From positions 51,998 through 115,997 of the forward strand of contig JAFXXU010000045.1 of NCBI GenBank assembly GCA_017542125.1: a stretch of 64,000 nt of DNA, given 5' to 3'. Below are positions 4,952-25,368 of this stretch, piece after piece (the stretch's first letter is position 1; every line of letters begins with the position of its first letter). Under the pieces are notes generated by a model, which worked only from the letters and a program-made list of their open reading frames with translations, was not told the origin of the DNA and searched no databases. A program made the position numbers and the translations under genes. The DNA comes from Ruminococcus sp. Lineage in GTDB: Bacteria > Bacillota > Clostridia > Oscillospirales > Ruminococcaceae.

Positions 4952-5836
4952 TTATCTCATATCGATCGATTCTTCCGTGGGGATGCCGCTCTCTTTGAGG
5001 GCCTCAAAGGCCAGCTGGACGTTCAGCTTCGAGAGATGCACCTTGCTGATCTGTGGAGCTGTTGGGGAATCGGGGTTGCGGTAGAAGTTGATGAAATACA
5101 TCTCGGAATCCGAGCCCACAGCCTTGCCGTTGAAGTAGGTGCCTCCCACCACGTCTGCACGCCTTGCGAGGATGATATCCGCCCGCTTTATGGGGATGAT
5201 CTCACCGGGAGTGATCAGAGTTATAAATTCATCACCGATGCTTACGGCGTTACCGCAGGCACCGACGATCTTCGAGCCCATATAACTGCGCTCCAAGCGC
5301 TCATAGTCCGGGCGGTCGGAGAGCTTAAGGTAAAAGCGCCTGGCTTTCAGCCCGAACAGCCCCGATGCTGCCAGATACAGCAGTATGATTATGCCGCCTA
5401 TTACAATATACTTGACACCGGGTTCCCCGTTGCCCTCACGCTCCTCTGCGAACAGGACGATGAGTATAAGTCCCAGCAGGAGTGCTCCCAGCAGTTCAAG
5501 AGCGATAGCCGGGCTGCGGTAGCGGGCGATAAGGTCGCTTTTCATATCCTTCTTAGGGGAGCCGGGCTGATGCTTCTCTGCAAAACGCTGATACCTGCGC
5601 TCACCTGCGGCAGTACGGAACAGCTGCCCTGCCCGGAGCTCATCGGCGGTCTTGAAGGACTTCACATTATCCCGGTGCTGCCAGTAGCTGATAAAGAATA
5701 TCACCACCAGCATTATCAGCGCTATAGGCACACATATATACCATTCTATTCCCTGAGCGACACCAAGCCCGATGCTTATAAGCACCGCGATGGATGCTAT
5801 ACCCGCATTCACAAGAACTTCCTTCAAAGCTGTCAC
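4952..5836 (-). CDS. Membrane protein with C-terminal cytoplasmic domain (YcxB-like layout)
   Basis: The 294-residue protein has two hydrophobic pairs: residues ~10-50 and ~108-165. They flank a basic loop, and a soluble C-terminal region from ~170 follows, with short strands such as GDEFITLITPGEIIPIKRADI. The layout recalls YcxB-like membrane proteins; this is a weak structural resemblance, not a family assignment. The listed start is GTG at 5836, which overlaps its own AAGGGG. A TTG at 5827 lies at better spacing from that ribosome binding site and is a likely alternative. It is the first gene after the tyrosine T-box, so its expression should rise when charged tRNA-Tyr is scarce. Nothing in the sequence shows it to be a tyrosine transporter. 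Confidence 0.75.
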   Translation of the reverse strand: MTALKEVLVNAGIASIAVLISIGLGVAQGIEWYICVPIALIMLVVIFFISYWQHRDNVKSFKTADELRAGQLFRTAAGERRYQRFAEKHQPGSPKKDMKSDLIARYRSPAIALELLGALLLGLILIVLFAEEREGNGEPGVKYIVIGGIIILLYLAASGLFGLKARRFYLKLSDRPDYERLERSYMGSKIVGACGNAVSIGDEFITLITPGEIIPIKRADIILARRADVVGGTYFNGKAVGSDSEMYFINFYRNPDSPTAPQISKVHLSKLNVQLAFEALKESGIPTEESIDMR

Positions 5837-5844
5837 CCCTTATC

Positions 5845-6090
5845 AGAAAAGCCCCCCGACGCGCAGAGCGTCAGAGGGCGAATATATCGCGGTACCACCT
5901 CGGTTTACGGGACATTGCCCCGCCTTTGAACGTTTTAACGCAGCGCCTGCGGACCGCCTTTGCAGATGCTCTGCTTTCTCGGCAGCCTGCTCCTCCGGTG
6001 TATTCGCCTGCGGGCTTCCTCGCCCTCACAGCTGCCGGGCGCTCTCTTTGCTCCGCTTCGCAGGTTACTTATCCGTGATCACAGCATTTT
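5845..6090 (-). ncRNA. T-box riboswitch, tyrosine (UAC) specifier
   Basis: On the minus strand the antiterminator T-box core AGGTGGTACCGCG lies at 5888-5900. It is followed by a competing terminator hairpin (about 5849-5880) and TTTTCT. In stem I, AAGTAA (loop E 5' side) precedes CCTGC, which pairs with GCAGG. The 3' side then reads CGAATACACC, placing UAC in the specifier position. AGAGAG and AGGAA elements of distal stem I are present. The UGGU bulge would pair with an ACCA tRNA end, consistent with the A discriminator of tRNA-Tyr. The leader therefore senses uncharged tRNA-Tyr and controls the 5836-2787 operon that ends in tyrS. Confidence 0.93.
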
Positions 6091-6103
6091 ATGTATTTAG
6101 GGT

Positions 6104-6132
6104 ATTATAACACACCTGCGCACTTTTGTCAA
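6104..6132 (-). promoter_or_regulatory. Consensus promoter of the T-box operon
   Basis: TTGACA (6127-6132) and TATAAT (6104-6109) with a 17-base spacer are exact consensus on the minus strand. The -35 box overlaps the TGA stop (6129-6131) of the upstream kinase-like gene. Confidence 0.9.
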
Positions 6133-6725
6133 GTCTCGGAGGCCTTGACCATATCGCAGATAGTCCTGACACAGCCCTCGATCCCCAGAGACGTGCTGTT
6201 GAGGCACACATCGTAGGTCAGCATCGAAGACCAGTTCTGGCGGGTGTTGACGTTGAAGAAATCCCCCCGCTTCTTATCGTAGCGCTTCAGGCGGGAATCT
6301 ATCTCCTTATAGGGGATGCCGTGCTCGTCGGCAGCACGGGCTGCGCGGCTCTCGTGGTCGGCGTAGATGTAGACCTTAAGCGTGGGGGTAAAGCTCTTTA
6401 AAATATACCCCGCACATCTGCCGACTATAACGCAGGGACCCTTGCGTACGATCTCGGTGATGATCTTCGTCTCGGCGGCAAAGACCTTCTCGTAGGCATC
6501 GAGGCTGCTCTCACGCCTGAGCATAAGGGTGCTCTTTATCGGATTGACTACCGATTCCTCCATAGCTGCCACATCCTCGGGGGACATTCCGATGCGCTCC
6601 GCTGCCATATCCACCAGCTCGTGGTCGTAGCAGGGTATTCCCAGCATTTCGGCCACGCGCCTGCCGATCTCGCTGCCTCCGCTGCAATACTGCCTCTCGA
6701 TAGCCACTACATTTATCTTTGCCAT
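6129..6725 (-). CDS. Cytidylate kinase-like family protein
   Basis: The 198-residue P-loop-fold protein belongs to the cytidylate-kinase-like group common in Clostridia. The N-terminus reads INVVAIERQYCSGGSEIGRRVAEML, where the degenerate phosphate loop is GxxSxGxEIG-like. The sequence PCVIVGRCAGYIL and a lid-type Arg cluster (ESRAARAADEHGI...RLKRYDKKRGDFF) follow. True Cmk proteins are about 225 residues with GPAGAGKST, so substrate specificity here is open. AAAGGAGG precedes the ATG. It has its own promoter (6765-6793). Its stop codon lies inside the -35 box of the T-box promoter. Confidence 0.8.
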   Translation of the reverse strand: MAKINVVAIERQYCSGGSEIGRRVAEMLGIPCYDHELVDMAAERIGMSPEDVAAMEESVVNPIKSTLMLRRESSLDAYEKVFAAETKIITEIVRKGPCVIVGRCAGYILKSFTPTLKVYIYADHESRAARAADEHGIPYKEIDSRLKRYDKKRGDFFNVNTRQNWSSMLTYDVCLNSTSLGIEGCVRTICDMVKASET

Positions 6726-6764
6726 ACAAAAGCCTCCTTTTTATCAAAGATATTATCCATATCC

Positions 6765-6793
6765 ATTATAACAAAGCCGCGGGGCAAAGTCAA
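6765..6793 (-). promoter_or_regulatory. Promoter of the cytidylate kinase-like gene
   Basis: On the minus strand TTGACT (6788-6793), a 17-base spacer and TATAAT (6765-6770). It is back to back with the promoter of the rightward SDR gene. Confidence 0.75.
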
Positions 6794-6820
6794 TTACAGT
6801 ATTATTACAACTCCCCCGTC

Positions 6821-6849
6821 TTGCAATTTGCGGCGGGATATGGTATGAT
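6821..6849 (+). promoter_or_regulatory. Promoter of the SDR gene, very short leader
   Basis: TTGCAA (6821-6826), a 17-base spacer and TATGAT (6844-6849). The predicted start point (~6856) falls inside the GAGGTG ribosome binding site (6855-6860) of the ATG at 6867, so the mRNA would be nearly leaderless. Confidence 0.65.
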
Positions 6850-6866
6850 AATGGCGAGGTGATAAT

Positions 6867-7595
6867 ATGAGAACTGCACTTGTGACCGGCGGCTCGGGAG
6901 ATATAGGCGCGGCGGTATGCCGCAGGCTGGCCTCCGAGGGCTTCGCCGTTGCGATAGGATATAATAAGAACGAAGCCTCTGCCTCCTCCCTCTGCGCAGA
7001 GCTGCGTGAGAGGGGCTGCACAGCTATGATCGTAAGGCTCGATCTCTCCGACCCGGCTTCGGCGGAAGAGGGATACGGACGAGTGAAGTCGGAGCTGGGG
7101 GCTCCGGAGGTGCTGGTCAACAACGGCGGCAGGGCTCACATCGGGCTGTTCACCGATATGACCGACAGCGAGATCGACGATCTCATCCGCACGGATCTTA
7201 CCGGGGCAATGCAGCTTTCACGCCGGGCGGCTGCGGATATGGTCAAACGGGGCAGCGGACGGATAGTCAGCATCACCTCCGTATGGGGAGAGGCGGGCGC
7301 CTCCTGCGAGACGGTCTACTCCGCGGCTAAGGCGGGGCTCATAGGCTTTACCAGGGCTCTCGGCAAGGAGCTTGCCCCCGGCGGGATAACCGTGAACTGC
7401 ATCAGCGCCGGGATGATCGACACTAAAATGAACGCTGCCCTTTCCGACGAGGACAAGGCAGCGATAGTTGATGACATCCCCATGGGCAGGATGGGCACCC
7501 CTGACGAGATAGCCTCCCTGGTCTCATTTCTCTGCTCGGAGGGGGCGGCATATATCACCGCCCAGTGCATCCGTGTTGACGGAGGCTGGATGTGA
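6867..7595 (+). CDS. Short-chain dehydrogenase/reductase (FabG-like)
   Basis: A 242-residue NAD(P)-dependent oxidoreductase of the classical SDR family. The TGGSGDIG dinucleotide-binding motif is at residues 7-14. VNNGG is near 89-93. The catalytic Ser is in SITS (about 138), and YSAAK (about 151-155) supplies Tyr and Lys. It ends in the usual IRVDGGWM. It resembles 3-oxoacyl-ACP reductases, but it is not beside other fatty-acid genes, so its substrate is uncertain. It is monocistronic: its own promoter is upstream, and a hairpin with a downstream T-run follows at 7617-7652. Confidence 0.9.
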   Translation: MRTALVTGGSGDIGAAVCRRLASEGFAVAIGYNKNEASASSLCAELRERGCTAMIVRLDLSDPASAEEGYGRVKSELGAPEVLVNNGGRAHIGLFTDMTDSEIDDLIRTDLTGAMQLSRRAAADMVKRGSGRIVSITSVWGEAGASCETVYSAAKAGLIGFTRALGKELAPGGITVNCISAGMIDTKMNAALSDEDKAAIVDDIPMGRMGTPDEIASLVSFLCSEGAAYITAQCIRVDGGWM

Positions 7596-7616
7596 AGCAG
7601 TAAACAGCGAATAAAG

Positions 7617-7658
7617 AACGGCAGCAGTACGATTTTTTGTACTGTTGCCGTTTGTTTT
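7617..7658 (+). terminator. Hairpin terminator, copy 1 of a repeated stem-loop
   Basis: A 14-bp stem, AACGGCAGCAGTAC and its near-perfect complement (one G-U pair), encloses a T-rich loop (7617-7652). TGTTTTT follows on the plus strand. An almost identical hairpin occurs at 21881-21916. It lies between convergent genes. Confidence 0.75.
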
Positions 7659-8572
7659 TATTTCCAGAGCTTTTCGGGGTAGGCGCCGTTCTTTATGAGC
7701 TCGCCTATGGAATCGGCTACTGCCTGCCTGTCCTCCTTATAGGTGACGCCGAACCAGCGGTCGTGGCTCTCCAGGAGAGTACACTCAGCCTCGCCGTTTT
7801 TGAGCAGGCCGTCGATCATAATGGGGAGCAGGGATTCTGCGGTCTCGCTCTCGTCGTTCTGGCAAAGGAACCTTTCAAACTCCTCCTCCAGCTTATCCAT
7901 AAACTCGGGGGGGCAGCCCCACATATTCATTGATACGCGGCTGTTCTCGTCCAGCTCCGAAGTCTCCTGCTTGCCGCAGAGCACCTTGCCGTCCTCGCGC
8001 CTGATATTGTAGGTCTCGGTTATGCTGACCAGCTTGCTGCTGTCGTCAACGCTGCAAACGCCTCTGGTGACAGCACCGTTCTCGGAGAGGGTGTTTTTCA
8101 GGATGAAGCCCGCCATGCAGAGATCCATCTTACCGCCCTCAAGAGGCTCACGCTCCGAGGTCAGATAGTTGTAGAGCTCAACAAAGGCCTGCTTGCCGTA
8201 ATAGTCGTCGGCATTGATCACCGCAAAGGGCTCCTTGACAGCGTCTCTTGCGCAGAGGACTGCGTGGCAGGTGCCCCAGGGCTTTTTGCGCACTATCTTC
8301 TTATGCTCCTCGGGGATATCGGTGGTCTCCTGGAACACATACTGCACGTTGATGTGCTTGGAGATCCTGCCGCCTATACGGTCGATGAACTCCTGCTCGA
8401 TATCGTGCCTGATGATGAATACTATCTTATTGAAGCCTGCCGCGATAGCATCGTAAACGGAATAGTCCATAATGATCTCATTGTCGGGGCCGACGGGTTC
8501 GAGCTGCTTAATACCCCCGCCGTAGCGGCTGCCTATGCCTGCTGCCATTATAACAAGTGTGCAATCCTTCAT
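7658..8572 (-). CDS. Sugar nucleotidyltransferase-family protein
   Basis: The 304-residue protein begins CTLVIMAAGIGSRYGGGIKQLEPVG, the GxGxR...K signature of nucleotide-dependent sugar-1-phosphate transferases. It contains INADDYYG, where the acidic pair would bind the metal and nucleotide. KPWGTCHAVLCARD matches the conserved GTxxAxxxA region. It belongs to the NTP_transferase superfamily, and the sugar substrate cannot be assigned. The ATG follows GAAGGAG. Two promoters lie upstream (8624-8652 and 8718-8746). Unlike the fusion protein at 483-2681, the catalytic motifs are intact. Confidence 0.85.
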   Translation of the reverse strand: MKDCTLVIMAAGIGSRYGGGIKQLEPVGPDNEIIMDYSVYDAIAAGFNKIVFIIRHDIEQEFIDRIGGRISKHINVQYVFQETTDIPEEHKKIVRKKPWGTCHAVLCARDAVKEPFAVINADDYYGKQAFVELYNYLTSEREPLEGGKMDLCMAGFILKNTLSENGAVTRGVCSVDDSSKLVSITETYNIRREDGKVLCGKQETSELDENSRVSMNMWGCPPEFMDKLEEEFERFLCQNDESETAESLLPIMIDGLLKNGEAECTLLESHDRWFGVTYKEDRQAVADSIGELIKNGAYPEKLWK

Positions 8573-8623
8573 AATATTTCTCCTTCGTTTTCACTCCGCG
8601 CCGATACGCCAGCTTCTGAAACT

Positions 8624-8652
8624 ATCATAGCATACTGCGTATCTGCGGTCAA
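8624..8652 (-). promoter_or_regulatory. Proximal promoter of the nucleotidyltransferase gene
   Basis: On the minus strand TTGACC (8647-8652), a 17-base spacer and TATGAT (8624-8629). Confidence 0.55.
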
Positions 8653-8717
8653 TGCTCTTATTGCCCCGATATCATCAAATATTGCTCAGACCTCCGGGGC
8701 GGCAGAGCATCTGTCTT

Positions 8718-8746
8718 ATTATACCTTATTTTTCCGATTAAGTCAA
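8718..8746 (-). promoter_or_regulatory. Distal promoter of the nucleotidyltransferase gene
   Basis: On the minus strand TTGACT (8741-8746), a 17-base spacer and TATAAT (8718-8723). It gives a leader of about 140 bases and forms a tandem pair with the promoter at 8624-8652. Confidence 0.7.
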
Positions 8747-8776
8747 GGAGGCTTCTCTATGCACAGTTCACAATGC

Positions 8777-8971
8777 ACAATGCACAATGAAGGAGTGCGC
8801 CTGCGGCGCACAGGATGCGCATCCGCGCAGACTGCCGTGTGCAGATCTGTTAACTTGTGCAGCTATACCCGGTTAGCTGTATAAAACACCGAGCGTCCAG
8901 ATATCAACATCTATGGTGTCCGAATGGACATAAAATCTGCGCAAAGCGCCGATACCTTCATTGTGCATTGT
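8777..8971. repeat. MITE-like element with 17-bp perfect terminal inverted repeats
   Basis: ACAATGCACAATGAAGG at 8777-8793 is repeated in perfect inverse orientation at 8955-8971. The 195-base interval carries further GC hairpins (GTGCGCctgcgGCGCAC just inside the left end) and no coding capacity. Short CACAATG-type motifs continue outside the left end. It lies between the nucleotidyltransferase promoters and the citrate synthase-like operon. Related fragments occur near 21866-21975 and 34043-34059. Confidence 0.65.
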
Positions 8972-9001
8972 AAATTGCAAAAGTGCATTGCTGGCCCCCT
9001 C

Positions 9002-16998: not shown

Positions 16999-17116
16999 AT
17001 TATGGCACAAAAGCGAAGCGTTGTGCCATAATTGCCCGATTCGCAGGGAGTGCCGTTTGCGGCACGGATCTGCGAGGGCTTTATGATAAATATAATATCA
17101 GCTTGCTGATATTATA
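16999..17116. repeat. Three consecutive inverted repeats
   Basis: Hairpin 1 (16999-17032) has 12-base arms ATTATGGCACAA/TTGTGCCATAAT. Hairpin 2 (17041-17075) pairs TCGCAG...TGCCG with CGGCA...CTGCGA. Hairpin 3 (17091-17116) has perfect 12-base arms TATAATATCAGC/GCTGATATTATA around TT. The region is non-coding and lies between the divergent PHP and 55-residue-protein genes. From 17117 to 17240 nothing else is recognised. Confidence 0.7.
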
Positions 17117-17240
17117 GCATATCCCGGGCTGAATGTAAAGAGCGGGGAGCAAACCCCCGCCCCCGTAATATCTTATTAACATCAAACATCAAAAGCGTTA
17201 AAAAGTATTAACAATTTCACAAAAATTCATAATTGCAGTC

Positions 17241-17269
17241 TTGAAATTTGGTTAATATTGTGATATAAT
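17241..17269 (+). promoter_or_regulatory. Promoter of the small-protein/double-rubredoxin operon
   Basis: TTGAAA (17241-17246), a 17-base spacer and TATAAT (17264-17269), in AT-rich surroundings. Confidence 0.8.
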
Positions 17270-17336
17270 ATAGAATAGCAGTAGTATAGGGCTGCTGCAC
17301 AAACAGAAAACAGAAGAAAACAAGGGGTGATCCGCT

Positions 17337-17504
17337 ATGCAGAAGGTATTCTATGTATCCAGAAACAGCGGTGACGGCTCTGCTCCTGATCTTGACCGCT
17401 TCGCGCGGATCGAGCAGCTGAACCGCCTGATCGCGCTCGGGTGGCGCATAACGTCCTTTGTTAACGAGGACAACAACGAATTCTTTATCCTGGAAAAAAG
17501 CTGA
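17337..17504 (+). CDS. Small 55-residue protein
   Basis: ATG at 17337 follows AAGGGGTGA at good spacing, downstream of a clear promoter. The product ([20 protein letters not shown]..., ending [10 protein letters not shown]) has a strand-helix-strand look with no signal or membrane segment. It ends 19 bases before the flavin-reductase/rubredoxin gene, with which it is cotranscribed. No family is recognised. The context suggests a link to redox or oxygen defence, but this is inference only. Confidence 0.75.
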
Positions 17505-17523
17505 GAAAACGGAGGGTACGGCT

Positions 17524-18297
17524 ATGGATATGACCGCTATGAACAAGATCTCCTACGGCCTTTATGTGCTCACTGCAAGATGCGGGAGCTTCTCCAATGG
17601 CTGTATCATCAACACACTGGCACAGGTGACCAGCTCCCCCAACCGGGTATCGGTCACTGTGAACAAATCCAACTACACCTGCTTTATGATCGCTCAGAGC
17701 GGGCGCTTCAATGTCTCGATGATCGACACGACCGCGGGCTTTGAAATGTTCACTCATTTCGGGTTCTCTTCCGGCAGGTGGGAGGATAAGCTCTACGGCA
17801 CCGAATTCAAGTATGCCGAGAACGGTGTTCCCTACATCCCGTACAACACCTGCGCTTATCTTTCGGGGGAGGTAGTTCAGCAGATAGACCTGGGCACCCA
17901 CATTATGTTCATTGCCGATGTCACTGCGGGCGAGGTGCTCTCGGACAACGCTCCGATGACCTATGCCTACTATCACGCCAACGTCAAGCCGAAGCCTGCC
18001 GCAGCTCCCGCTGCGGATAAGAATGAGGTCTCCGGTGAGAGATGGATCTGCAACATCTGCGGATACATCTACGAGGGGCATCTGCCAGACGATTTCATCT
18101 GCCCGCTGTGCAAGCACGGCGCAGCTGATTTCTCCCGCTTGGACGATGCCGCTCCCAAGGAGGAAAAGCCCGCTGAAGAAAGCGGCGAGGAAAAATGGGT
18201 CTGCTCCGTATGCGGATATGTTTACGAGGGAGCATTGCCCGAGGATTTCGTCTGCCCCATTTGCGGGGTCGGCGCTGATGAGTTCACTAAGCTATAA
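17524..18297 (+). CDS. Flavin reductase-like protein with two C-terminal rubredoxin domains
   Basis: The 257-residue protein has an FMN-binding flavin-reductase/flavoredoxin domain at residues ~5-150 and then two rubredoxins. Rubredoxin 1 has Cys 176, 179, 193 and 196; rubredoxin 2 has Cys 227, 230, 244 and 247, both as CxxCGYxYEG...CPxC. The layout extends that of the high-molecular-weight rubredoxin (Hrb) of Moorella, which passes electrons to flavodiiron NO/O2 reductase. A double rubredoxin tail is unusual. ATG at 17524 follows GGAGGG; upstream in-frame TTG at 17458 is rejected because it lies inside the small-protein gene. The role is probably O2/NO detoxification electron transfer in the cytoplasm. 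Confidence 0.9.
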
Positions 18298-18306
18298 GAA
18301 TATTTA

Positions 18307-18340
18307 CGCCCGGGAGCATTGGCTGCCCGGGCGCTTTTTT
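18307..18340 (+). terminator. Rho-independent terminator of the rubredoxin operon
   Basis: CGCCCGGG and CCCGGGCG stems with a loop containing AGCATTGGCTG, then six T. The T-run overlaps the stop codon of the convergent lipoprotein gene. Confidence 0.9.
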
Positions 18341-19256
18341 ATGCGTTGGGATCAAAGGTAAGGCCGTTGTCCTCGGCGATCTTGGTGAGGATCTCTGTAA
18401 CTTCGGCTTCGTCCATTTCTGCGAGCTGCTCGTAGGTGTAGCCCGCAGCGGTCACCATTTCCTCGGTAACGCCGTAGGCTGCCAGACCCATCTTGATGGT
18501 GGCTACCTTATCAAGCTTTTCACCCTGTTTCAGCTCCGTCCAGTCCGTGAGGTCGGGGAGCTCGATCTTGATGTCCTCAAAGGAAAGGCCGGTGACGGTG
18601 AATACCGTCTCACCCGTAGCGGGGAGGTTGCCGGAGACCTTTTTGAGTTCCTTATTCGTGTCGAAATAGTATCTGCACTCATAGCTTCCGCCGTCAATAC
18701 CCAGGTCTATGCTCACATCGGTCTTGTTGACGATAATGGGTATCTCGTACTTCTCGACGATGAGGCCGTCCTCCATTTCGTTGCCGATGAACTTGGCACT
18801 CTCGCTCAGAGCATATGTATTCACGCCCTGCTGCTCCACTGTGGTAGCCTTGCTGACGGTGTAGGTCTTCATCTGGGGCATAAGGTTATATGCCACGCCG
18901 TCTATCTGGCAGACCTCAACGTCGATGCCCATAGTGGTCATCTTCACATAGAGATCCTCGCCGCTGACCTTTACCGACATGGGCGACTCTCCGAACATAG
19001 CGGTCTGGACGGTCCCCTCCAGAGCATATACGCCGCTCTCTATCTTCCTGGTGAACTCCTTGGCATACTCGCCGTTTGTCTCGATGATCTCCTCAGAGGA
19101 ATCCTCTTCCGAGCTTTCGGGAGCTGTCTCGGCAGGAGTGGTGGTAGTCTCGGGAGCCGAGGTCACAGGCGCACCGGATATCTCCTTGCCGCCGCAGGAG
19201 CACAGCAGCATACCCGCAGCAATGAGCGCGAGTGCTGTTGCAGCTGTCTTTTTCAT
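18339..19256 (-). CDS. Secreted lipoprotein of unknown function
   Basis: The 305-residue protein has a lipoprotein signal with lipobox LLCSC and lipidated Cys at 21. A Thr/Ser/Glu/Pro-rich linker (residues ~28-62) is followed by a soluble domain of alternating strands. That domain resembles LolA/LppX-like or DUF-type lipoproteins that read a membrane or lipid state, but no firm family is recognised. The C-terminus has a helical segment (AAYGVTEEMVTAAGYTYEQL). ATG at 19256 follows AAAGGAG; the longer frame to 19382 is rejected because it precedes the ribosome binding site. It is anchored outside the cytoplasmic membrane. Its own promoter is at 19371-19399. Confidence 0.85.
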   Translation of the reverse strand: MKKTAATALALIAAGMLLCSCGGKEISGAPVTSAPETTTTPAETAPESSEEDSSEEIIETNGEYAKEFTRKIESGVYALEGTVQTAMFGESPMSVKVSGEDLYVKMTTMGIDVEVCQIDGVAYNLMPQMKTYTVSKATTVEQQGVNTYALSESAKFIGNEMEDGLIVEKYEIPIIVNKTDVSIDLGIDGGSYECRYYFDTNKELKKVSGNLPATGETVFTVTGLSFEDIKIELPDLTDWTELKQGEKLDKVATIKMGLAAYGVTEEMVTAAGYTYEQLAEMDEAEVTEILTKIAEDNGLTFDPNA

Positions 19257-19370
19257 AGTGTTCTCCTTTCGTTCATTTCCGCCGGAGCATCGGGGAGCCT
19301 CTCTCTGCTCTCTGACCCCTCGCCCCCAGCGATCCTTTTCCATACTGCTGTTTTTGAAACAGCAAAGCAT

Positions 19371-19399
19371 ATTATAACACATCTTTATGAAAAAATCAA
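19371..19399 (-). promoter_or_regulatory. Promoter of the lipoprotein gene
   Basis: On the minus strand TTGATT (19394-19399), a 17-base spacer and TATAAT (19371-19376). Confidence 0.75.
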
Positions 19400-19404
19400 G
19401 TACA

Positions 19405-19440
19405 CGAAAAAAGACACCCCCGGATCACTCCGGAGGTGCC
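19405..19440 (-). terminator. Terminator of the GGGtGRT/NifU-like operon
   Basis: On the minus strand GGCACCTCCGG pairs with CCGGGGGTGTC and is followed by six T. It lies just after the stop of the 19456-20457 gene. Confidence 0.8.
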
Positions 19441-19455
19441 TGAAAAACCGTGATA

Positions 19456-20457
19456 TTACTTGTTCATAGCCTCTTCAACAGCAACTGCGCAGGCAACGGT
19501 AGCACCAACCATCGGGTTGTTGCCCATACCGATAAGACCCATCATCTCAACGTGAGCGGGAACAGAGGACGATCCGGCGAACTGAGCGTCGGAGTGCATA
19601 CGTCCCATAGTATCGGTCATACCGTAGGAAGCAGGGCCTGCTGCCATATTATCGGGGTGGAGGGTTCTGCCCGTACCGCCGCCGGATGCAACAGAGAAGT
19701 ACTTCTTGCCGGCATCTGTGCGCTCTTTCTTATAGGTACCTGCAACGGGATGCTGGAAGCGGGTGGGGTTGGTGGAGTTACCGGTGATGGAAACATCAAC
19801 GTTCTCCTTCCACATAATAGCAACGCCCTCGGTAACATCGTTGGCACCGTAGCAGTTTACCTTAGCGCGGAGGCCGTTGGAGTAAGCCTTGCGGAATACT
19901 TCCTTTACCTCGCCGGTGTGGTAATCCATCTCGGTCTCAACATAGGTGAAGCCGTTAACTCTTGCGATGATCTGAGCAGCGTCCTTGCCGAGGCCGTTCA
20001 GGATAACACGCAGGGGCTTCTTTCTTACCTTGTTAGCCTTCTCAGCGATACCGATAGCGCCCTCAGCAGCAGCGAAGGACTCGTGGCCTGCCAGGAATGC
20101 GAAGCACTCGGTATCCTCTTCAAGCAGCATCTTGCCCAGGTTGCCGTGGCCAAGGCCGACCTTTCTCTGATCGGCAACGGAGCCGGGGATGCAGAAGGAC
20201 TGGAGGCCCTCGCCGATAGCGGCGGCAGCGTCAGCAGCCTTGGTGCAGCCCTTCTTGATAGCGATAGCGCAGCCTACAGTGTAAGCCCACTTAGCGTTCT
20301 CAAAGCAGATGGGCTGGATGCTCTCAACCAGCTTGTAGATGTCAAGACCCTTTGCCTTGCAGATCTCGGCGCACTCCTCGATGGAGCCGATGCCGTACTG
20401 ACCGAGGACTTCAAGGATCTGTTTTTCTCTTCTCTCATAAGATTCAAATAAAGCCAT
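19456..20457 (-). CDS. GGGtGRT-family protein
   Basis: The 333-residue cytoplasmic protein contains the family-defining GGGTGRT at residues 259-265, followed by LHPDNMAAGPASYGM. Several Cys are present (28-33, 51, 63, 71, 89, 118, 202). The family (Pfam calls it GGGtGRT protein, from memory) has no established function. It is the second gene of a two-gene operon with a NifU-like protein, 14 bases downstream, sharing promoter 21212-21240. The pairing suggests a role around Fe-S cluster or metal/sulfur handling (inference). There is no signal peptide or membrane segment. Confidence 0.88.
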   Translation of the reverse strand: MALFESYERREKQILEVLGQYGIGSIEECAEICKAKGLDIYKLVESIQPICFENAKWAYTVGCAIAIKKGCTKAADAAAAIGEGLQSFCIPGSVADQRKVGLGHGNLGKMLLEEDTECFAFLAGHESFAAAEGAIGIAEKANKVRKKPLRVILNGLGKDAAQIIARVNGFTYVETEMDYHTGEVKEVFRKAYSNGLRAKVNCYGANDVTEGVAIMWKENVDVSITGNSTNPTRFQHPVAGTYKKERTDAGKKYFSVASGGGTGRTLHPDNMAAGPASYGMTDTMGRMHSDAQFAGSSSVPAHVEMMGLIGMGNNPMVGATVACAVAVEEAMNK

Positions 20458-20471
20458 AATACTGATCCTCC

Positions 20472-21164
20472 TTATTCCTTTCTGGGGTCAACGATCTTGA
20501 CCGCGTCGGCAACTCTGCCGTACTGACCCTGAGCCTTCTCGAAAGCGGTATTAGCGTCGTCGCCGGCCTTGATGAAGTCCATCATCTTGCCGAAGTTAAC
20601 GAACTTGTAGCCGATGATCTCGTTATCCTCATTGAGTGCGAGGCCGGTGATATAGCCGTCGGTCATCTCAAGATAACGGGGGCCCTTTGCCAGGGTGCCG
20701 TAGATGGTACCGATCTGCGAACGGAGGCCCTTGCCGAGATCCTCAAGGCCTGCGCCTACAACGAGGCCGCCCTCGGAGAATGCGGACTGTGAACGACCGT
20801 AAACGATCTGGAGGAAAAGCTCTCTCATAGCGGTATTGATAGCATCGCATACCAGGTCGGTATTAAGAGCCTCGAGGATAGTTCTTCCGGGGAGGATCTC
20901 ACCTGCCATAGCTGCGGAATGGGTCATACCCGAGCAGCCGATAGTTTCAACGAGGCACTCCTGGATAACGCCTTCCTTAACGTTGAGGGTCAGCTTGCAG
21001 GTTCCCTGCTGGGGAGCGCACCAGCCGATGCCGTGTGTAAAGCCCGAGATATCCTTGATCTCCTTGGCCTTTACCCACTTTGCTTCCTCGGGGATAGGAG
21101 CAGCGCCGTGAGCAACGCCCTGTGCGATAGGGCACATTGTTTCAACTTCGTGCGAATAGATCAT
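20472..21164 (-). CDS. NifU-like iron-sulfur scaffold-like protein
   Basis: The 230-residue protein has a NifU/IscU N-terminal-type core: VQECLVETIGCSGMTHSAAMAGEILPGRTILEAL corresponds to the conserved GC...S...G(K/R)T region (C77, with C70 nearby). Cys 11, 49, 56 and 106 are other candidates. The classical three-Cys IscU arrangement is not complete, and a C-terminal extension (residues ~135-230) is added. It is translated just before the GGGtGRT protein. The function is uncharacterised; Fe-S scaffold or carrier is the working idea. AAAGGAG precedes the ATG. Confidence 0.82.
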   Translation of the reverse strand: MIYSHEVETMCPIAQGVAHGAAPIPEEAKWVKAKEIKDISGFTHGIGWCAPQQGTCKLTLNVKEGVIQECLVETIGCSGMTHSAAMAGEILPGRTILEALNTDLVCDAINTAMRELFLQIVYGRSQSAFSEGGLVVGAGLEDLGKGLRSQIGTIYGTLAKGPRYLEMTDGYITGLALNEDNEIIGYKFVNFGKMMDFIKAGDDANTAFEKAQGQYGRVADAVKIVDPRKE

Positions 21165-21211
21165 TATACAATACTCCTTTCGATTTATGGGCAGAAAAAG
21201 CCCTTATTATC

Positions 21212-21240
21212 ATAATACTACAAAACGCCCTTTAAATCAA
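21212..21240 (-). promoter_or_regulatory. Promoter of the NifU-like/GGGtGRT operon
   Basis: On the minus strand TTGATT (21235-21240), a 17-base spacer and TATTAT (21212-21217). A small GGGC...GCCC hairpin lies in the leader (about 21189-21203). Confidence 0.7.
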
Positions 21241-21290
21241 GTCTTTTTTATAAATTATTTGGGCTCACCGGGAAGCTGCGCCTCTGCTGC

Positions 21291-21319
21291 TTGATTTTTC
21301 CGCATTTATGTAGTATAAT
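21291..21319 (+). promoter_or_regulatory. Promoter of the C_GCAxxG_C_C gene
   Basis: TTGATT (21291-21296), a 17-base spacer and TATAAT (21314-21319). Confidence 0.75.
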
Positions 21320-21350
21320 AGCTTTCAGAACTTTTTACGGAGGCTTTGTT

Positions 21351-21845
21351 ATGGAAAACGGTCACGTTGAGCAGGCGGTAAAGAATTTTGCAGAGGGGAT
21401 GAACTGCGCCCAGTCGGTATTCGCCGCGTTTACCGATGTTACGGGGCTTGACAAGGATACGGCCATGAGGCTGGCCTCCTCCTTCGGCGGGGGGATGGGC
21501 AGGCTGCGGGAGGTCTGCGGCACCTGCACCTCCATGTTTATGATCGTCGGGCTGCTCTACGGCCTCGGGGACGGCTTTACCCACGAGGAAAAGACTGCTC
21601 ACTACAGCCGCATACAGGATCTGGCTGCCCGGTTCAGGGCAAAGCACGGGACCATCGTCTGCCGGGAGCTTTTAAAGGGTCTCGCCGTTACCTCCACACC
21701 CGAGCCGGAGCGCCGGACGGAGCAGTATTACAAGGTCCGTCCCTGCGTGAGATTCGTCCGCACCGCCGCGGAGATACTCGACGCCTATCTTGCCGAGAAC
21801 CCGATCCCCAAAAGAAACGGAAATGTTGACGGGTATGACAAGTAA
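21351..21845 (+). CDS. C_GCAxxG_C_C-family redox protein
   Basis: The 164-residue protein has the pattern of the C_GCAxxG_C_C family: GMNCAQSV (C19), GGGMGRLREVCGTC (C56, C59), CRELL (C104) and RPC (C132). The family is common in anaerobes, is presumed redox-active or metal-binding, and has no defined reaction. ATG at 21351 follows ACGGAGG; the longer frame from 21291 overlaps the promoter and is rejected. It is divergent from the Fe-S-like module at 19456-21164, another Cys-rich system. The repeated hairpin at 21881-21916 follows it. Confidence 0.88.
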   Translation: MENGHVEQAVKNFAEGMNCAQSVFAAFTDVTGLDKDTAMRLASSFGGGMGRLREVCGTCTSMFMIVGLLYGLGDGFTHEEKTAHYSRIQDLAARFRAKHGTIVCRELLKGLAVTSTPEPERRTEQYYKVRPCVRFVRTAAEILDAYLAENPIPKRNGNVDGYDK

Positions 21846-21880
21846 GTAATGCTGGATCCTTTTGAGCTATGCACAATGCT

Positions 21881-21916
21881 AACGGCAGCAGTACAATTTT
21901 TTGTACTGCTGCCGTT
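21881..21916 (+). terminator. Hairpin terminator, copy 2 of the repeated stem-loop
   Basis: A perfect 14-bp stem AACGGCAGCAGTAC/GTACTGCTGCCGTT encloses a T-rich loop. It is nearly identical to 7617-7652, and both follow rightward genes. It is flanked by a TATGCACAATG fragment and a GTCCGC/GCGGAC hairpin. Confidence 0.7.
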
Positions 21917-21926
21917 GCTTTGGATA

Positions 21927-21975
21927 CGTCCGCGAAGCGGACACCTTCACTGTTCACTATTCATTATTCACTGAT
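21927..21975. repeat. GC hairpin plus TTCACT-type repeat fragment
   Basis: GTCCGCgaaGCGGAC is followed by ACCTTCACTGTTCAC and further TTCA-type near-repeats. The architecture (short tandem motif, AAGG, GC hairpin) matches the left end of the 8777-8971 element. It encodes the last residues of the C39-like gene. Confidence 0.5.
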
Positions 21976-22322
21976 TCCGTTTCCCAGAAGAACTTGCGGG
22001 CACACTCGGGGAAATCAGACATTACCCCGTGCTCCGGGTCGTAGAACGTCCCCTCACAGTAGAGAGACCAGTGCCAGCAGCGGGGCGTTTCCAGGCTGAG
22101 AATACACAGGGGAGGGAGCTCGCTTTTATCCCTTACTGCCTTCCTCTCGTCGCTGATGAGGAAGCCCGCTGCCCGCAGGTAGGACTTCATCTCTTTAAGG
22201 TCGGTCTCCCGGTCGTTATTAAGCTCCGAGACCACCTCGGAGACCTCCCTGCCCGTGATCATCGCCAGCACCGCCTGCCCGCACTGGAGGTCGGTGGGCT
22301 CGTGGATGTAGCGTATCCCCAT
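21957..22322 (-). CDS. C39 peptidase-like (papain-fold) small protein
   Basis: The 121-residue protein has the Gln-Cys/His/Asp set of C39-like domains: DLQCGQAVLAM (Q13, C14), CWHWSLYCEGTFYDPEHG (H84, D95). C39 domains cleave double-glycine leaders in transporters, but stand-alone versions like this one have unknown targets, and no transporter is attached. It lies 4 bases downstream of the methyltransferase, so the two are cotranscribed. Its last codons (SVNNE and stop) are made of the dispersed TTCACT repeat, so the C-terminus may have been altered by repeat insertion. Confidence 0.7.
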   Translation of the reverse strand: MGIRYIHEPTDLQCGQAVLAMITGREVSEVVSELNNDRETDLKEMKSYLRAAGFLISDERKAVRDKSELPPLCILSLETPRCWHWSLYCEGTFYDPEHGVMSDFPECARKFFWETESVNNE

Positions 22323-22326
22323 AGCT

Positions 22327-23097
22327 TCACCTGCGCTCCAGAATAATCTTGATATGGGTGTTCTCTTTGAGCTCGATGCCCGTATCCTTTCGCAGCTGCC
22401 AGGAAAGATAAGGCAGCGTAAAGGGCTCGAAATAGCTGATCCTGTACCCGTCGGGGATCATACCGAGCATCTCCTCCACAGATACGGGGAAATAGTTCTC
22501 CCTGACCTCCCGCTCCCAGTTGTTGGTGTACTTGTATTTCAGCAGGAAATGCACCAGCTGCTTCTGGGTGGTGACCCTGCCCCAGATGCTCTCAAAGCTT
22601 TCCAAAAGCTCCGAATAGCCCGAGCGCTTCACCGCTTCAAGCTGAGCCGGGTCGGCAGGCCTGTCCTGAGCGTCGGAGAACATCATATCCCGTATGGCGA
22701 TATATTTGAAGCCGCTGCCAAAGAGCCTCTCCCTGAACTCCTCTATATCCTCCCGGGAGCAGTATGACCAAACCTCGTGGATAACGCTTGAAACGTTTAT
22801 CAGGCTTTTCTCAAAGGGGATATCTATGGCGTTCCAGTCGGTATAGAAGGAGGCCTCTGGGACGTTCTGCTTCGCTGCTTCTATCATTTCCTCGCTGATG
22901 TCATAGCCGATATAGCGGTACTCCGAGCACATAGAGCGCAGCGCCTTTATCAGCTCGCCGTTGGCGCAGCCGAAGTCCACGATATTCTCAAAGGGCTCGA
23001 AGACCTTGTCGATGAAGAACATTTTATCCAGCACCGAGCGCTGCATACGGGTCAGGTACATTTCAAGGTCGGCTATCCTGTTTTCGTCGATATTCAC
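22327..23097 (-). CDS. Class I SAM-dependent methyltransferase
   Basis: The 256-residue protein has the SAM-binding motif I IVDFGCANGELIKAL and a following acidic loop YIGYDISEEMIEAA. The acceptor is unknown. GTG at 23097 follows AAGGAGG at ideal spacing; a frame start at 23121 would put that ribosome binding site inside the coding region. The ribosome binding site overlaps the stop of the upstream beta-CASP gene, so the two are coupled. The helical N- and C-terminal parts suit a small-molecule or protein acceptor, but this cannot be resolved. Confidence 0.85.
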   Translation of the reverse strand: MNIDENRIADLEMYLTRMQRSVLDKMFFIDKVFEPFENIVDFGCANGELIKALRSMCSEYRYIGYDISEEMIEAAKQNVPEASFYTDWNAIDIPFEKSLINVSSVIHEVWSYCSREDIEEFRERLFGSGFKYIAIRDMMFSDAQDRPADPAQLEAVKRSGYSELLESFESIWGRVTTQKQLVHFLLKYKYTNNWEREVRENYFPVSVEEMLGMIPDGYRISYFEPFTLPYLSWQLRKDTGIELKENTHIKIILERR

Positions 23098-23108
23098 GGC
23101 TGTCCTCC

Positions 23109-24692
23109 TTAAGGCTGCCACTTGGAGCAGAGATTTGCTATGGTATCCGCCATCTTGCCCAGCTCCTTGTTTGTGAGCCCCTTGCTGGACTGGACTATGG
23201 CGGTCAGGCGGTCAAGTGATGCCACAAGCCGCTGATAAGCCGTGGAGGGCTTGGCAGTACGGGTGATATAGATAGGCTCCGCCTGAGTGAATTCGCCGGT
23301 GATAAGGTCAAGCTCTGCGCCGCTGAAGGGGCAGTAGGCGTCGAGACCCATATCGTCCCGGAGATGCTGGGTGTACTGCTCCGAGATAGCCCCCTCGCCG
23401 TGGTTCACGAATACCTTCTTGGGTCTCTCCAGGTGGGATATCCACTCGTCGAGTCCGTCCTTGTCGGCGTGCCCGCTGACGCCCGGCAGGATAGTTATCT
23501 CCGCACAGACGCTTATATCCTCGCCGAAGAGCTTTACCCTCTTGGCGCCGTCGCAGAGGGAGCGTCCCAGGGTGGCTGCCGCCTGGTATCCCACGAAGAC
23601 CACGGTGCACTCCTGCCTCCAGAGATTGTGCTTCAAGTGGTGCTTGATCCTGCCCGCCTCGCACATACCGCTGGCTGAGATTATCACCTTCGGCACTCTG
23701 TCGAAGTTTATCGCCCGGGACTCATCGCTGGTGACGGCCAGCTTAAGGTCATCGAACTGTATGGGGTTTATCCCCCTGCTGACGTAGGACATAGCCTCCT
23801 CGTCGTAGCAGGAGCTCTTGTTGCGCATGAATATGCCCGTAGCCTCGATAGCCAGGGGCGAATCCACATAGACGGGGAAACCGTCGTGACCCTTGACCAG
23901 CCCGTGCTCCTTGACCTGACGCAGGAAATAGAGCATCTCCTGTGTTCTTCCCACCGCAAAGGAGGGGATGACCACATTGCCACCCCGGTCAAAGGTGCGC
24001 TGCAGCACCTCCGCCAGTGCCTTGGCATAGTCGGCGGGACGGCTGTGGAGGCGGTTGCCGTAGGTGGACTCCATAACGGCATAATCAGCTTTTTTGAGGA
24101 ACTGGGGATCACGGAGCAGCGGCTGATGCTTGTTGCCGATATCCCCCGAAAAGACGATAACACGGGTCTGACCCTCCTCGGTCAGGGTGAGCTCTATGCT
24201 TGAGGAGCCCAGCAGATGCCCGGCGTCGATGTATCTGACGCTGATACCATCGCAGATATCTACCCGCTCATCGTATGAATGTGGCACCAGCAGACGGATA
24301 GCGCCCTCGGCATCGTTGATGGTATATAAGGGCTCGATGTTGTCCTGCCCTTTTCTTCTTGCCTTACGGGAGCGCCATTCCGACTCGAACTCCTGTATAT
24401 GGGCGGAATCTCTCAGCATTATTGCGCAGAGGTCGGCAGTTGCCGAGGTGCAGTGTATCTCACCCTTGAATCCCCCCGCATAGAGCAGCGGCAGCAGGCC
24501 GGAGTGGTCGATATGGGCGTGGGTGAGCAGCACGAAATCAATGTTTGAGGGCGAAGTAGGCACCTGTGTGTTCTCGTAGACATCCACACCCTGCTCCATT
24601 CCGAAATCCACGAGAAAGCTCTTCCCGCAGGCATTTATATAGGTACAGCTGCCCGTGACCTCGTGGGCAGCGCCGATAAAGCATAGCTTCAT
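23109..24692 (-). CDS. MBL-fold beta-CASP RNA/DNA-processing nuclease-like protein
   Basis: A 527-residue metallo-beta-lactamase superfamily protein. The metal motif HAHIDHSG (HxHxDH) is in FVLLTHAHIDHSGLLPLL. AGHLLGSSS and FSGDIG follow, then the beta-CASP motifs. SASGMCEAGRIKHHL and the final GVSGHADKDGLDEW fit RNA-metabolising MBL proteins of the YSH1/KHSRP-like type. A C-terminal extension of about 70 residues is added. Cellular RNA targets are unknown. The promoter is at 24770-24798. It is upstream of, and coupled to, the methyltransferase gene. Confidence 0.88.
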   Translation of the reverse strand: MKLCFIGAAHEVTGSCTYINACGKSFLVDFGMEQGVDVYENTQVPTSPSNIDFVLLTHAHIDHSGLLPLLYAGGFKGEIHCTSATADLCAIMLRDSAHIQEFESEWRSRKARRKGQDNIEPLYTINDAEGAIRLLVPHSYDERVDICDGISVRYIDAGHLLGSSSIELTLTEEGQTRVIVFSGDIGNKHQPLLRDPQFLKKADYAVMESTYGNRLHSRPADYAKALAEVLQRTFDRGGNVVIPSFAVGRTQEMLYFLRQVKEHGLVKGHDGFPVYVDSPLAIEATGIFMRNKSSCYDEEAMSYVSRGINPIQFDDLKLAVTSDESRAINFDRVPKVIISASGMCEAGRIKHHLKHNLWRQECTVVFVGYQAAATLGRSLCDGAKRVKLFGEDISVCAEITILPGVSGHADKDGLDEWISHLERPKKVFVNHGEGAISEQYTQHLRDDMGLDAYCPFSGAELDLITGEFTQAEPIYITRTAKPSTAYQRLVASLDRLTAIVQSSKGLTNKELGKMADTIANLCSKWQP

Positions 24693-24769
24693 AAAGACAT
24701 CCTCCGTTCCCGCGCCGGGCGCGAAATAGTTTTCGGCTCATGCCGGAGGGCTTACAGCCCTCTTTAATC

Positions 24770-24798
24770 ATTATAACACATTTCATACATTTTTGCAA
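24770..24798 (-). promoter_or_regulatory. Promoter of the beta-CASP/methyltransferase/C39-like operon
   Basis: On the minus strand TTGCAA (24793-24798), a 17-base spacer and TATAAT (24770-24775). Confidence 0.75.
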
Positions 24799-24860
24799 TA
24801 ACAGAAAGCGATTTTTATATATTTTTCCGACAGTCCCGCTTTCCTGTCCGCCGGAGGGTA

Positions 24861-24890
24861 AGAAAAAGCCCCCGCGGCATCCGAAGGGGC
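24861..24890 (-). terminator. Terminator of the cyclophilin gene
   Basis: On the minus strand GCCCC...GGGGGC (24868-24890) is followed by TTTTTCT. Confidence 0.7.
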
Positions 24891-24897
24891 ATATCTC

Positions 24898-25368
24898 TTA
24901 TTCGATGATGACCTTCTTCATTTTCTGCTCGGTCTTGGGTCTGTCGTTGAAGCCAACGGGGGTGTTGGCGATCTCGTCAACCACGTCCATACCCTCTACT
25001 ACCTTGCCGAAGGCCGCATACTGGCCGTCAAGGTGGGGCGCATCCTGATGCATGATGAAGAACTGGGAGCTTGCCGAGTTGGGGTTCATAGCTCTTGCCA
25101 TTGAAAGCACGCCGCGGGTATGCTTTATGGGGTTGGGAACTCCGTTTGCAAGGAACTCGCCCTTGATCTTCTCCTTGGCGCCGCCCATTCCGGTACCCTC
25201 GGGGTCGCCGCCCTGTATCATAAAGCCCTTGATAACACGGTGGAATATGAGCCCGTCATAAAAGCCCTCTTTTACCAGCTTCTCAAAGTTTGCGACAGAG
25301 ATGGGCGCCGCATCGGGATAAAGCTCCAGCTTGATCTTCTTGCCGTTTTCCATTTCGATTACAACCAT
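24898..25368 (-). CDS. Cyclophilin-type peptidyl-prolyl cis-trans isomerase
   Basis: A 156-residue single-domain cyclophilin that speeds proline isomerisation during protein folding. The core motifs IFHRVIKGFMIQGGDP and ASSQFFI are present, with GKVVEGMDVVD near the end. There is no signal peptide, so it acts in the cytoplasm. ATG follows AAAGGAG. It lies 92 bases after the 25461 gene and may be read through from it. It is followed by its own terminator. Confidence 0.95.
   Translation of the reverse strand: MVVIEMENGKKIKLELYPDAAPISVANFEKLVKEGFYDGLIFHRVIKGFMIQGGDPEGTGMGGAKEKIKGEFLANGVPNPIKHTRGVLSMARAMNPNSASSQFFIMHQDAPHLDGQYAAFGKVVEGMDVVDEIANTPVGFNDRPKTEQKMKKVIIE

Follow-up and report, generated by a model that had tools for sequence, protein, structure and literature searches.

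A NifU-like/GGGtGRT gene pair of anaerobic bacteria as a likely iron-sulfur enolase unrelated to the magnesium-dependent enzyme

The window analysed here is a 64,000-nucleotide stretch of DNA from a Ruminococcus sp. (assembly GCA_017542125.1, contig JAFXXU010000045.1, positions 51,998 to 115,997). On its minus strand it encodes two adjacent proteins (Table 1), a NifU-like protein first, and after a gap of 14 nt a GGGtGRT protein, the gene for which is present in one copy in this genome. The original prediction described the pair as a module without assigned chemistry, in line with the available literature passages naming GGGtGRT, which give no function for it. We consider it very likely that the pair acts as an enolase, converting 2-phosphoglycerate to phosphoenolpyruvate (PEP; EC 4.2.1.11), and that it is unrelated to the Mg-dependent enolase. 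This assignment is based on the obligate pairing of the two genes, their place in glycolytic gene order, the absence of enolase from many genomes that carry them and their clustering with fluoride-response genes, as well as on an iron response taken from the literature. A promoter-like site and a terminator-like hairpin flank the pair, as had been predicted, but both are consensus matches only, because similar sites also arise in shuffled sequence (four terminator-like and five promoter-like sites in a 2.2 kb scan, versus 2.2 and 1.4 in shuffles).

Table 1. Positions of the gene pair and associated features in the window (ORF, open reading frame)
Feature	Position	Strand	Comment
NifU-like subunit ORF, 230 aa	20472-21164	-	weak PF01592; proposed cluster-carrying subunit
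GGGtGRT subunit ORF, 333 aa	19456-20457	-	PF14057; proposed substrate-binding subunit, sequence orphan
Codon of invariant Cys49 (NifU-like)	21018-21020	-	alignment
Codon of invariant Cys77 (NifU-like), aligned with second NifU/IscU ligand Cys	20934-20936	-	alignment
Codon of invariant Cys106 (NifU-like)	20847-20849	-	alignment
GGGTGRT motif, residues 259-265	19663-19683	-	sequence and alignment
Terminator-like hairpin 3' of pair, 13 bp stem and T run	19441-19412	-	consensus match only
Promoter-like site 5' of pair, 9/12	21240-21212	-	consensus match only

The two genes form a tight module. In a survey of 196 genomes of the window's class, 163 of which are at least 90% complete, GGGtGRT was found in 91 genomes and a strong match to the partner in 91, with both present in 90 (G numbers below denote genomes, and L numbers fetched loci). 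The two unpaired cases are a partial GGGtGRT gene at a contig start (G442) and a partial NifU-like partner (G304). By a scripted rule, 127 of the 129 GGGtGRT loci fetched have the partner directly upstream and in the same orientation, and the two failing loci are explained by a contig cut 46 nt upstream (L066) and by a start-codon overlap only (L038). Neither gene is thus usually found alone, and an ORF of the length expected for a fusion of the two is not seen in any of the 129 loci. GGGtGRT proteins from 14 other loci are 63–87% identical to that of the window, and their partners 60–83%. The pair is common in gut and rumen bacteria, and occurs also outside the class, in Bacteroidota, Collinsella, Vibrio and Persicobacter. 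Among 148 evenly drawn Bacteroidota genomes, the GGGtGRT family was found in one, which is the survey centre itself, and in the class of G186 it was found in one of ten genomes.

Enolase (PF00113) is missing from 44 of the 196 class genomes, including that of the window, which has the pair and PGK. PGK is present in 183 of the 196 genomes, and in 37 of the 44 that lack enolase. GGGtGRT and enolase occur together in 55 genomes, GGGtGRT without enolase in 36, enolase without GGGtGRT in 97, and neither in eight (Fisher 9.6e-8), where the enolase-positive genomes take in a marginal match in G367 (E 1.8e-4, under the family cut-off) and several fragments. For the genomes at least 90% complete, the corresponding numbers are 52, 28, 82 and one (Fisher 2.3e-9), i.e., the pair is present in 28 of 29 enolase-less genomes. 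The exception, G430, also lacks PGK, and its glycolytic genes may therefore lie in a gap. Enolase-less pair genomes are spread over 19 of 69 families, enolase-positive genomes are likewise found in 12 of these 19, and a family-level table of pair versus enolase gives p 0.002. The PGK regions of 15 genomes chosen from the 36 enolase-less pair genomes contain no eno in any case, and gpmI is kept in ten of them (L208 is cut by the contig end). In four control genomes (L216–L219), the order gap-pgk-tpi-gpmI-eno is found in all four. Among the matches listed, the three enolase matches with an internal stop all come from pair genomes, namely G431, which belongs to the window's family, G432 and G420.

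A further indication of function comes from gene order. In L184 and L185, the genes gap-pgk-tpi-gpmI-NifU-like-GGGtGRT-pyk follow each other on a single strand, so that at these loci the pair occupies the slot of enolase. The loci belong to two genera (G248 and G174, respectively) of one family in the window's phylum, but in another class. The genes in L184 were identified by Pfam and NCBIfam, and those in L185 by Pfam (gpmI and pyk) or tblastn (the rest). In the same family, gpmI is directly upstream of the pair also in L008, L010, L011 and L012, and pyk was not found in the fetched DNA of these four loci. Two further loci bring the pair close to genes of lower glycolysis. In L083 (Clostridium sp. 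D43t1), eno (5622–6902, minus strand) and the pair (7287–8999, plus strand) are divergent and about 385 nt apart, an arrangement that would suit reciprocal control from one intergenic region, and in L095 the pair and a pyk-like gene are convergent. The enolase step is the only one left unfilled between gpmI and pyk, and since pyruvate kinase, which needs PEP, follows the pair, PEP is the expected product. The absence of enolase and the gene order would fit any route from 2-phosphoglycerate, for example direct formation of pyruvate and phosphate, or an activating effect on an unseen enolase, with no PEP made by the pair itself. Such a bypass is very improbable given the pyruvate kinase gene after the pair in L184 and L185, and the gpmI gene retained in the PGK regions of most of the enolase-less genomes inspected.

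An enolase assignment is consistent with the reported iron responses. In Clostridium pasteurianum, iron is reported to raise GGGtGRT 7.1-fold in the early and 2.2-fold in the late phase, and its neighbour 2.4–3.7-fold early and 1.6–3.7-fold overall. PFOR and hydrogenase change in the same direction as GGGtGRT, and triosephosphate isomerase and GAPDH are 1.5–1.6-fold higher with iron. Enolase is reported to be 4.1–4.8-fold higher without iron in the early phase and 1.8–4.0-fold in the late phase. In Bacteroides thetaiotaomicron, the pair (BT0173–BT0174) is reported to go down 11–12.8-fold on iron depletion, with P listed as 0. Motifs for Rex, Fur, IscR, PerR, CcpN and CymR were sought upstream of 173 pair loci, many of them related, and the Fur motif is at chance level in this set. 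Rex-like sites with at most two mismatches occur in 11 of the 173 upstream regions, against about 0.6 in single-base shuffles, and control of the pair by NADH through these sites is possible.

The NifU-like subunit was predicted to resemble an iron-sulfur (Fe-S) scaffold with an incomplete cysteine set and an extra C-terminal domain. The resemblance is borne out: the window protein matches PF01592 (NifU_N) with E 0.0075 and 16.9 bits, under the cut-off of 22, a weak match recurs in all 43 aligned partners (best 3.3e-5), and a profile of the NifU-like proteins aligns over 67 columns with seven canonical NifU proteins (hhalign, probability 94.9, E 4.4e-8). The common core spans residues ~33–102, and the match stops near residue 113 of 230, which confirms the extra C-terminal part. 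The statement about the cysteines is right in that the NifU ligand set is broken, but needs correction, as the protein has an invariant set of its own. In the alignment, Cys33 and Asp35 of NifU are replaced by Gln53 and Thr55, Cys60 is kept as Cys77, and Cys104 falls outside, which leaves Cys77 as the only residue in register with a NifU ligand. All 131 rows have Cys49, Cys77 and Cys106, which are available for a candidate cluster; Cys56 is near-invariant (98%), and absent in L019 and Vibrio. Because the core aligns with NifU while Cys33 and Asp35 are replaced, the NifU-like subunit is, judged from its sequence, related by ancestry to the scaffold core, with a rearranged cysteine set. The residue alignments comprise 131 NifU-like and 134 GGGtGRT rows, with the window counted twice in both, and include many close relatives.

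Ancestry from a scaffold raises the question of whether the pair could be a module for Fe-S cluster assembly or repair, with the NifU-like protein as scaffold, GGGtGRT as its partner, and an indirect link to glycolysis. Apart from the NifU homology, the pair of Collinsella is found downstream of sufCBDSU, separated from it by a transposase gene, and 14 of the 91 pair genomes have a weak match as their sole PF01592 match (4e-5 to 5e-4, where the threshold of the genome search was E 0.001 or better), which is probably the pair's own protein. In 11 of these 14 genomes without a strong canonical match (G270, G337, G346, G358, G369, G389, G395, G404, G432, G440 and G484), a SUFBD-domain protein was found, in open frames of ~310–347 aa, and these genomes may run a minimal SUF-like system. 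PF01592 matches 187 of the 196 class genomes when the pair's own weak matches are included. By hand count, 173 genomes have a strong canonical NifU/IscU/SufU match, 77 of 91 with the pair and 96 of 105 without it, and the pair is therefore not the usual scaffold. A role in assembly also disagrees with the replaced ligands, with an amount that drops at low iron along with PFOR and hydrogenase in the reported data, with the position between gpmI and pyk, and with the presence of the pair in nearly all enolase-less genomes at 90% completeness. For these reasons we rejected a partner role in Fe-S assembly, which we regard as very unlikely. The new Fe-S or sulfur-carrier reaction considered possible in the original prediction is likewise not supported: most genomes already have the canonical scaffold, the pair behaves like an iron enzyme in decreasing when iron is limiting, and the enolase step is indicated by the gene order, the missing enolase and the control by fluoride. 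Compared with NifU, IscU and SufU, the pair's protein thus shares the core, but differs in scoring under the Pfam cut-off, in its single ligand cysteine in register, in the added C-terminal part and in the adjoining GGGtGRT partner.

The GGGtGRT subunit is a sequence orphan outside its own family. The window protein is a full-length member of PF14057 (E 1.8e-191, 635.6 bits versus a cut-off of 27), and no other consistent Pfam match was found in 40 members. A convincing relative in the PDB was not found either (best E 0.44 by sequence and 0.49 by profile), and comparisons with the NifU-like profile and with enolase revealed no relation to the former and no similarity to the latter. The motif residues Gly259, Gly260, Gly261, Gly263, Arg264 and Thr265 are invariant in the 134 rows. 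Further invariant charged or histidine residues are Arg98, His104, His125, Glu126, Glu132, Arg145, Lys158, Asp159, Arg166, Glu210, Glu218, Arg233, His236, Lys243, Asp269, Asp282, Arg286, Asp290 and His302, in addition to Arg264. Although both proteins had been described as cysteine-containing, this holds as a conserved property only for the NifU-like one, since GGGtGRT has no invariant cysteine (the best is at 98%).

Fluoride provides another link to enolase. According to the accessible part of a review (PMC11139923), fluoride inhibits enolase, and enolase is often found in operons under fluoride riboswitches, which is a likeness to the pair. In a first Rfam scan at the gathering threshold, the fluoride riboswitch RF01734 was found directly upstream of the pair in two of 16 loci (L016 and L018). 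Three more loci were confirmed by Rfam, L139 (Vibrio sp. THAF191d), L140 (Persicobacter) and L187 (G089), after selection by a home-made model (R1) run over 184 loci; because these were chosen by model matches, the five riboswitch loci do not represent a rate. The model was built from three riboswitches, is insensitive and missed the riboswitch of the window's own genome. This single fluoride riboswitch (G000:C54:2688-2775, L194) lies before a Na+/H+ exchanger gene. L187, L188 and L189 are wider views of L017, L016 and L018, and in all three, two crcB genes and a DUF190 gene (Pfam) come after the pair; the L188 crcB is assigned by NCBIfam as a fluoride efflux transporter, and in L187 a TauE gene is located ahead of the pair. 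In L139, the pair constitutes the first genes after the riboswitch, and in L140 a CLC-family transporter gene comes between the two and is separated by 466 nt from the pair behind it.

An iron-sulfur mechanism for the proposed enolase is probable. In dehydratases of the aconitase and fumarase type, a [4Fe-4S] cluster is held by three cysteines, and the open iron acts as a Lewis acid. On catalysis, the cluster, the roles of the two subunits and insensitivity to fluoride, we infer the following. The NifU-like subunit would hold a [4Fe-4S] cluster on Cys49, Cys77 and Cys106, with one iron left open that could act as a Lewis acid and bind the carboxylate or 3-hydroxyl group of 2-phosphoglycerate. 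GGGtGRT may bind the phosphate group through the glycine-rich loop and the invariant Arg/Lys/His set, and would supply the base for proton abstraction at C2, after which water would leave from C3 to give PEP. Classical enolase is inhibited in a Mg-fluoride-phosphate mode, and because the pair enzyme would not be a Mg enzyme, it should escape this inhibition. Since it would depend on iron, classical enolase would be expected to replace it under iron shortage. In all, the pair can be expected, with good but not full confidence, to constitute an oxygen-labile and fluoride-tolerant iron-sulfur enolase non-homologous to the classical one, with the cluster on a NifU/IscU-derived subunit next to an orphan partner, that is used when iron is replete and gives way to Mg-enolase when iron is short, Mg-enolase having been lost in many gut species.

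Functionally, the pair would correspond to enolase (eno; PF03952/PF00113) in the proposed reaction and in its place after gpmI, but it differs in lacking sequence similarity (no PF00113 or PF03952 match in the Pfam scan of the window pair), in the proposed iron-sulfur rather than Mg chemistry and in having two subunits. With the [4Fe-4S] hydro-lyases, such as aconitase, class I fumarase and L-serine dehydratase, it would share the three-cysteine cluster with an open iron and the dehydration of a β-hydroxy acid. Unlike these enzymes, the pair has no Pfam match to such families, and its cluster would be on a NifU-derived subunit. No prior assignment of an iron-sulfur or alternative enolase, or of a fluoride riboswitch combined with NifU, was recognised in the literature covered, which was mostly open-access.

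Several observations weigh against the enolase assignment. The glycolytic gene order is confined to one family (six genomes of four genera, with pyk in two) and may therefore have arisen only once; in other lineages the pair lacks glycolytic neighbours, single cases excepted, and the comparison of L184 and L185 is restricted to the loci. Of the 91 pair genomes in the class, 55 also keep enolase, and the missing eno of the window's genome, taken alone, could be a gap, since the assembly is 90.5% complete. When enolase loss is permuted within families, p is 0.26, which is non-significant, as there is hardly any variation in the pair within a family. In B. thetaiotaomicron, the reported line for eno (three genes) goes up 2.0–7.7-fold with P 0.144, and is not significant. 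Extracts of Butyrivibrio proteoclasticus B316, which has no eno, are reported to have very low enolase activity. An oxygen-labile enzyme would fit such low activity; exclusion of air is not stated in the available text of the methods.

Two papers, as far as their text is available, favour a methylglyoxal shunt for enolase-less Butyrivibrio. If this or another pathway operates in enolase-less cells, the pair might merely travel with strictly anaerobic lineages, as the within-family permutation would allow, and B316 is reported to have two methylglyoxal synthase genes. On the other hand, the shunt genes are described as incomplete in the enolase-less Butyrivibrio sp. LC3010, and the lactate as the L form only; the shunt costs ATP according to a 2023 review (seen in part), and Endomicrobia lack methylglyoxal synthase. 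We also infer that the Butyrivibrio comparison would miss the pair if enolase-positive and enolase-negative strains both carry it. As the shunt moreover leaves the gene order and the iron and fluoride links unexplained, we find this alternative extremely unlikely.

The fluoride link is also limited in extent. RF01734 is absent upstream of the pair in 14 of the 16 loci of the first Rfam scan, in all 20 further class loci, before the pair in L141 and L142, and from positions 17000–25000 of the window, and hence from before the window's pair. The same absence in 14 of 16 and 20 of 20 loci speaks against a pair devoted to fluoride detoxification or repair of fluoride damage, with a secondary glycolytic location. 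The riboswitch and crcB clusters would suit such a role, but it gives no reason for the absence of enolase where the pair is present, and we consider it barely credible.

Beyond the two genes, no broadly conserved neighbours emerged when the ORFs of wide loci were clustered (125 loci, 13 of which were dropped as the ORF picker lost GGGtGRT, leaving 112; only clusters spanning at least seven loci were reported). The glycolytic context surfaced with targeted queries only, and not in this general clustering. In the window, the divergent neighbour (21336–21845, plus strand) is a C_GCAxxG_C_C putative redox protein (PF09719, E 1.4e-34), and a gene at 17524–18297 (plus strand) encodes a protein that combines a flavin reductase domain with two rubredoxin-like domains in one chain (PF01613 and PF21349). 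The 3' end of the GGGtGRT gene resembles an integration site. Copies of 72–95 nt that span this end, 93.5–100% identical, are found downstream in L162, L163, L192 and L193, and Phage_integrase (PF00589) was detected in eight of nine tested ORFs nearby, the exception being in L192. All seven IMG/VR matches carry the GGGtGRT gene within ~2 kb of a contig end. The observation concerns L132–L134, L136 and L137 in addition to the four loci above, and also G457 and G466.

In a 2023 review, the available part of which we consulted, the glycolysis of B. proteoclasticus without enolase is still unexplained. If the assignment is true, it answers this published puzzle of enolase-negative gut bacteria, and a named gene pair makes the puzzle testable. 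It would also provide a function for the GGGtGRT protein, which is reported, in the excerpts at hand, to be strongly expressed by anaerobes of the chicken caecum and to occur in rumen metaproteomes, and would explain part of a fluoride-response gene set. The lower glycolysis of many anaerobes would then be iron-dependent, and a scaffold protein would have been turned into an enzyme subunit.
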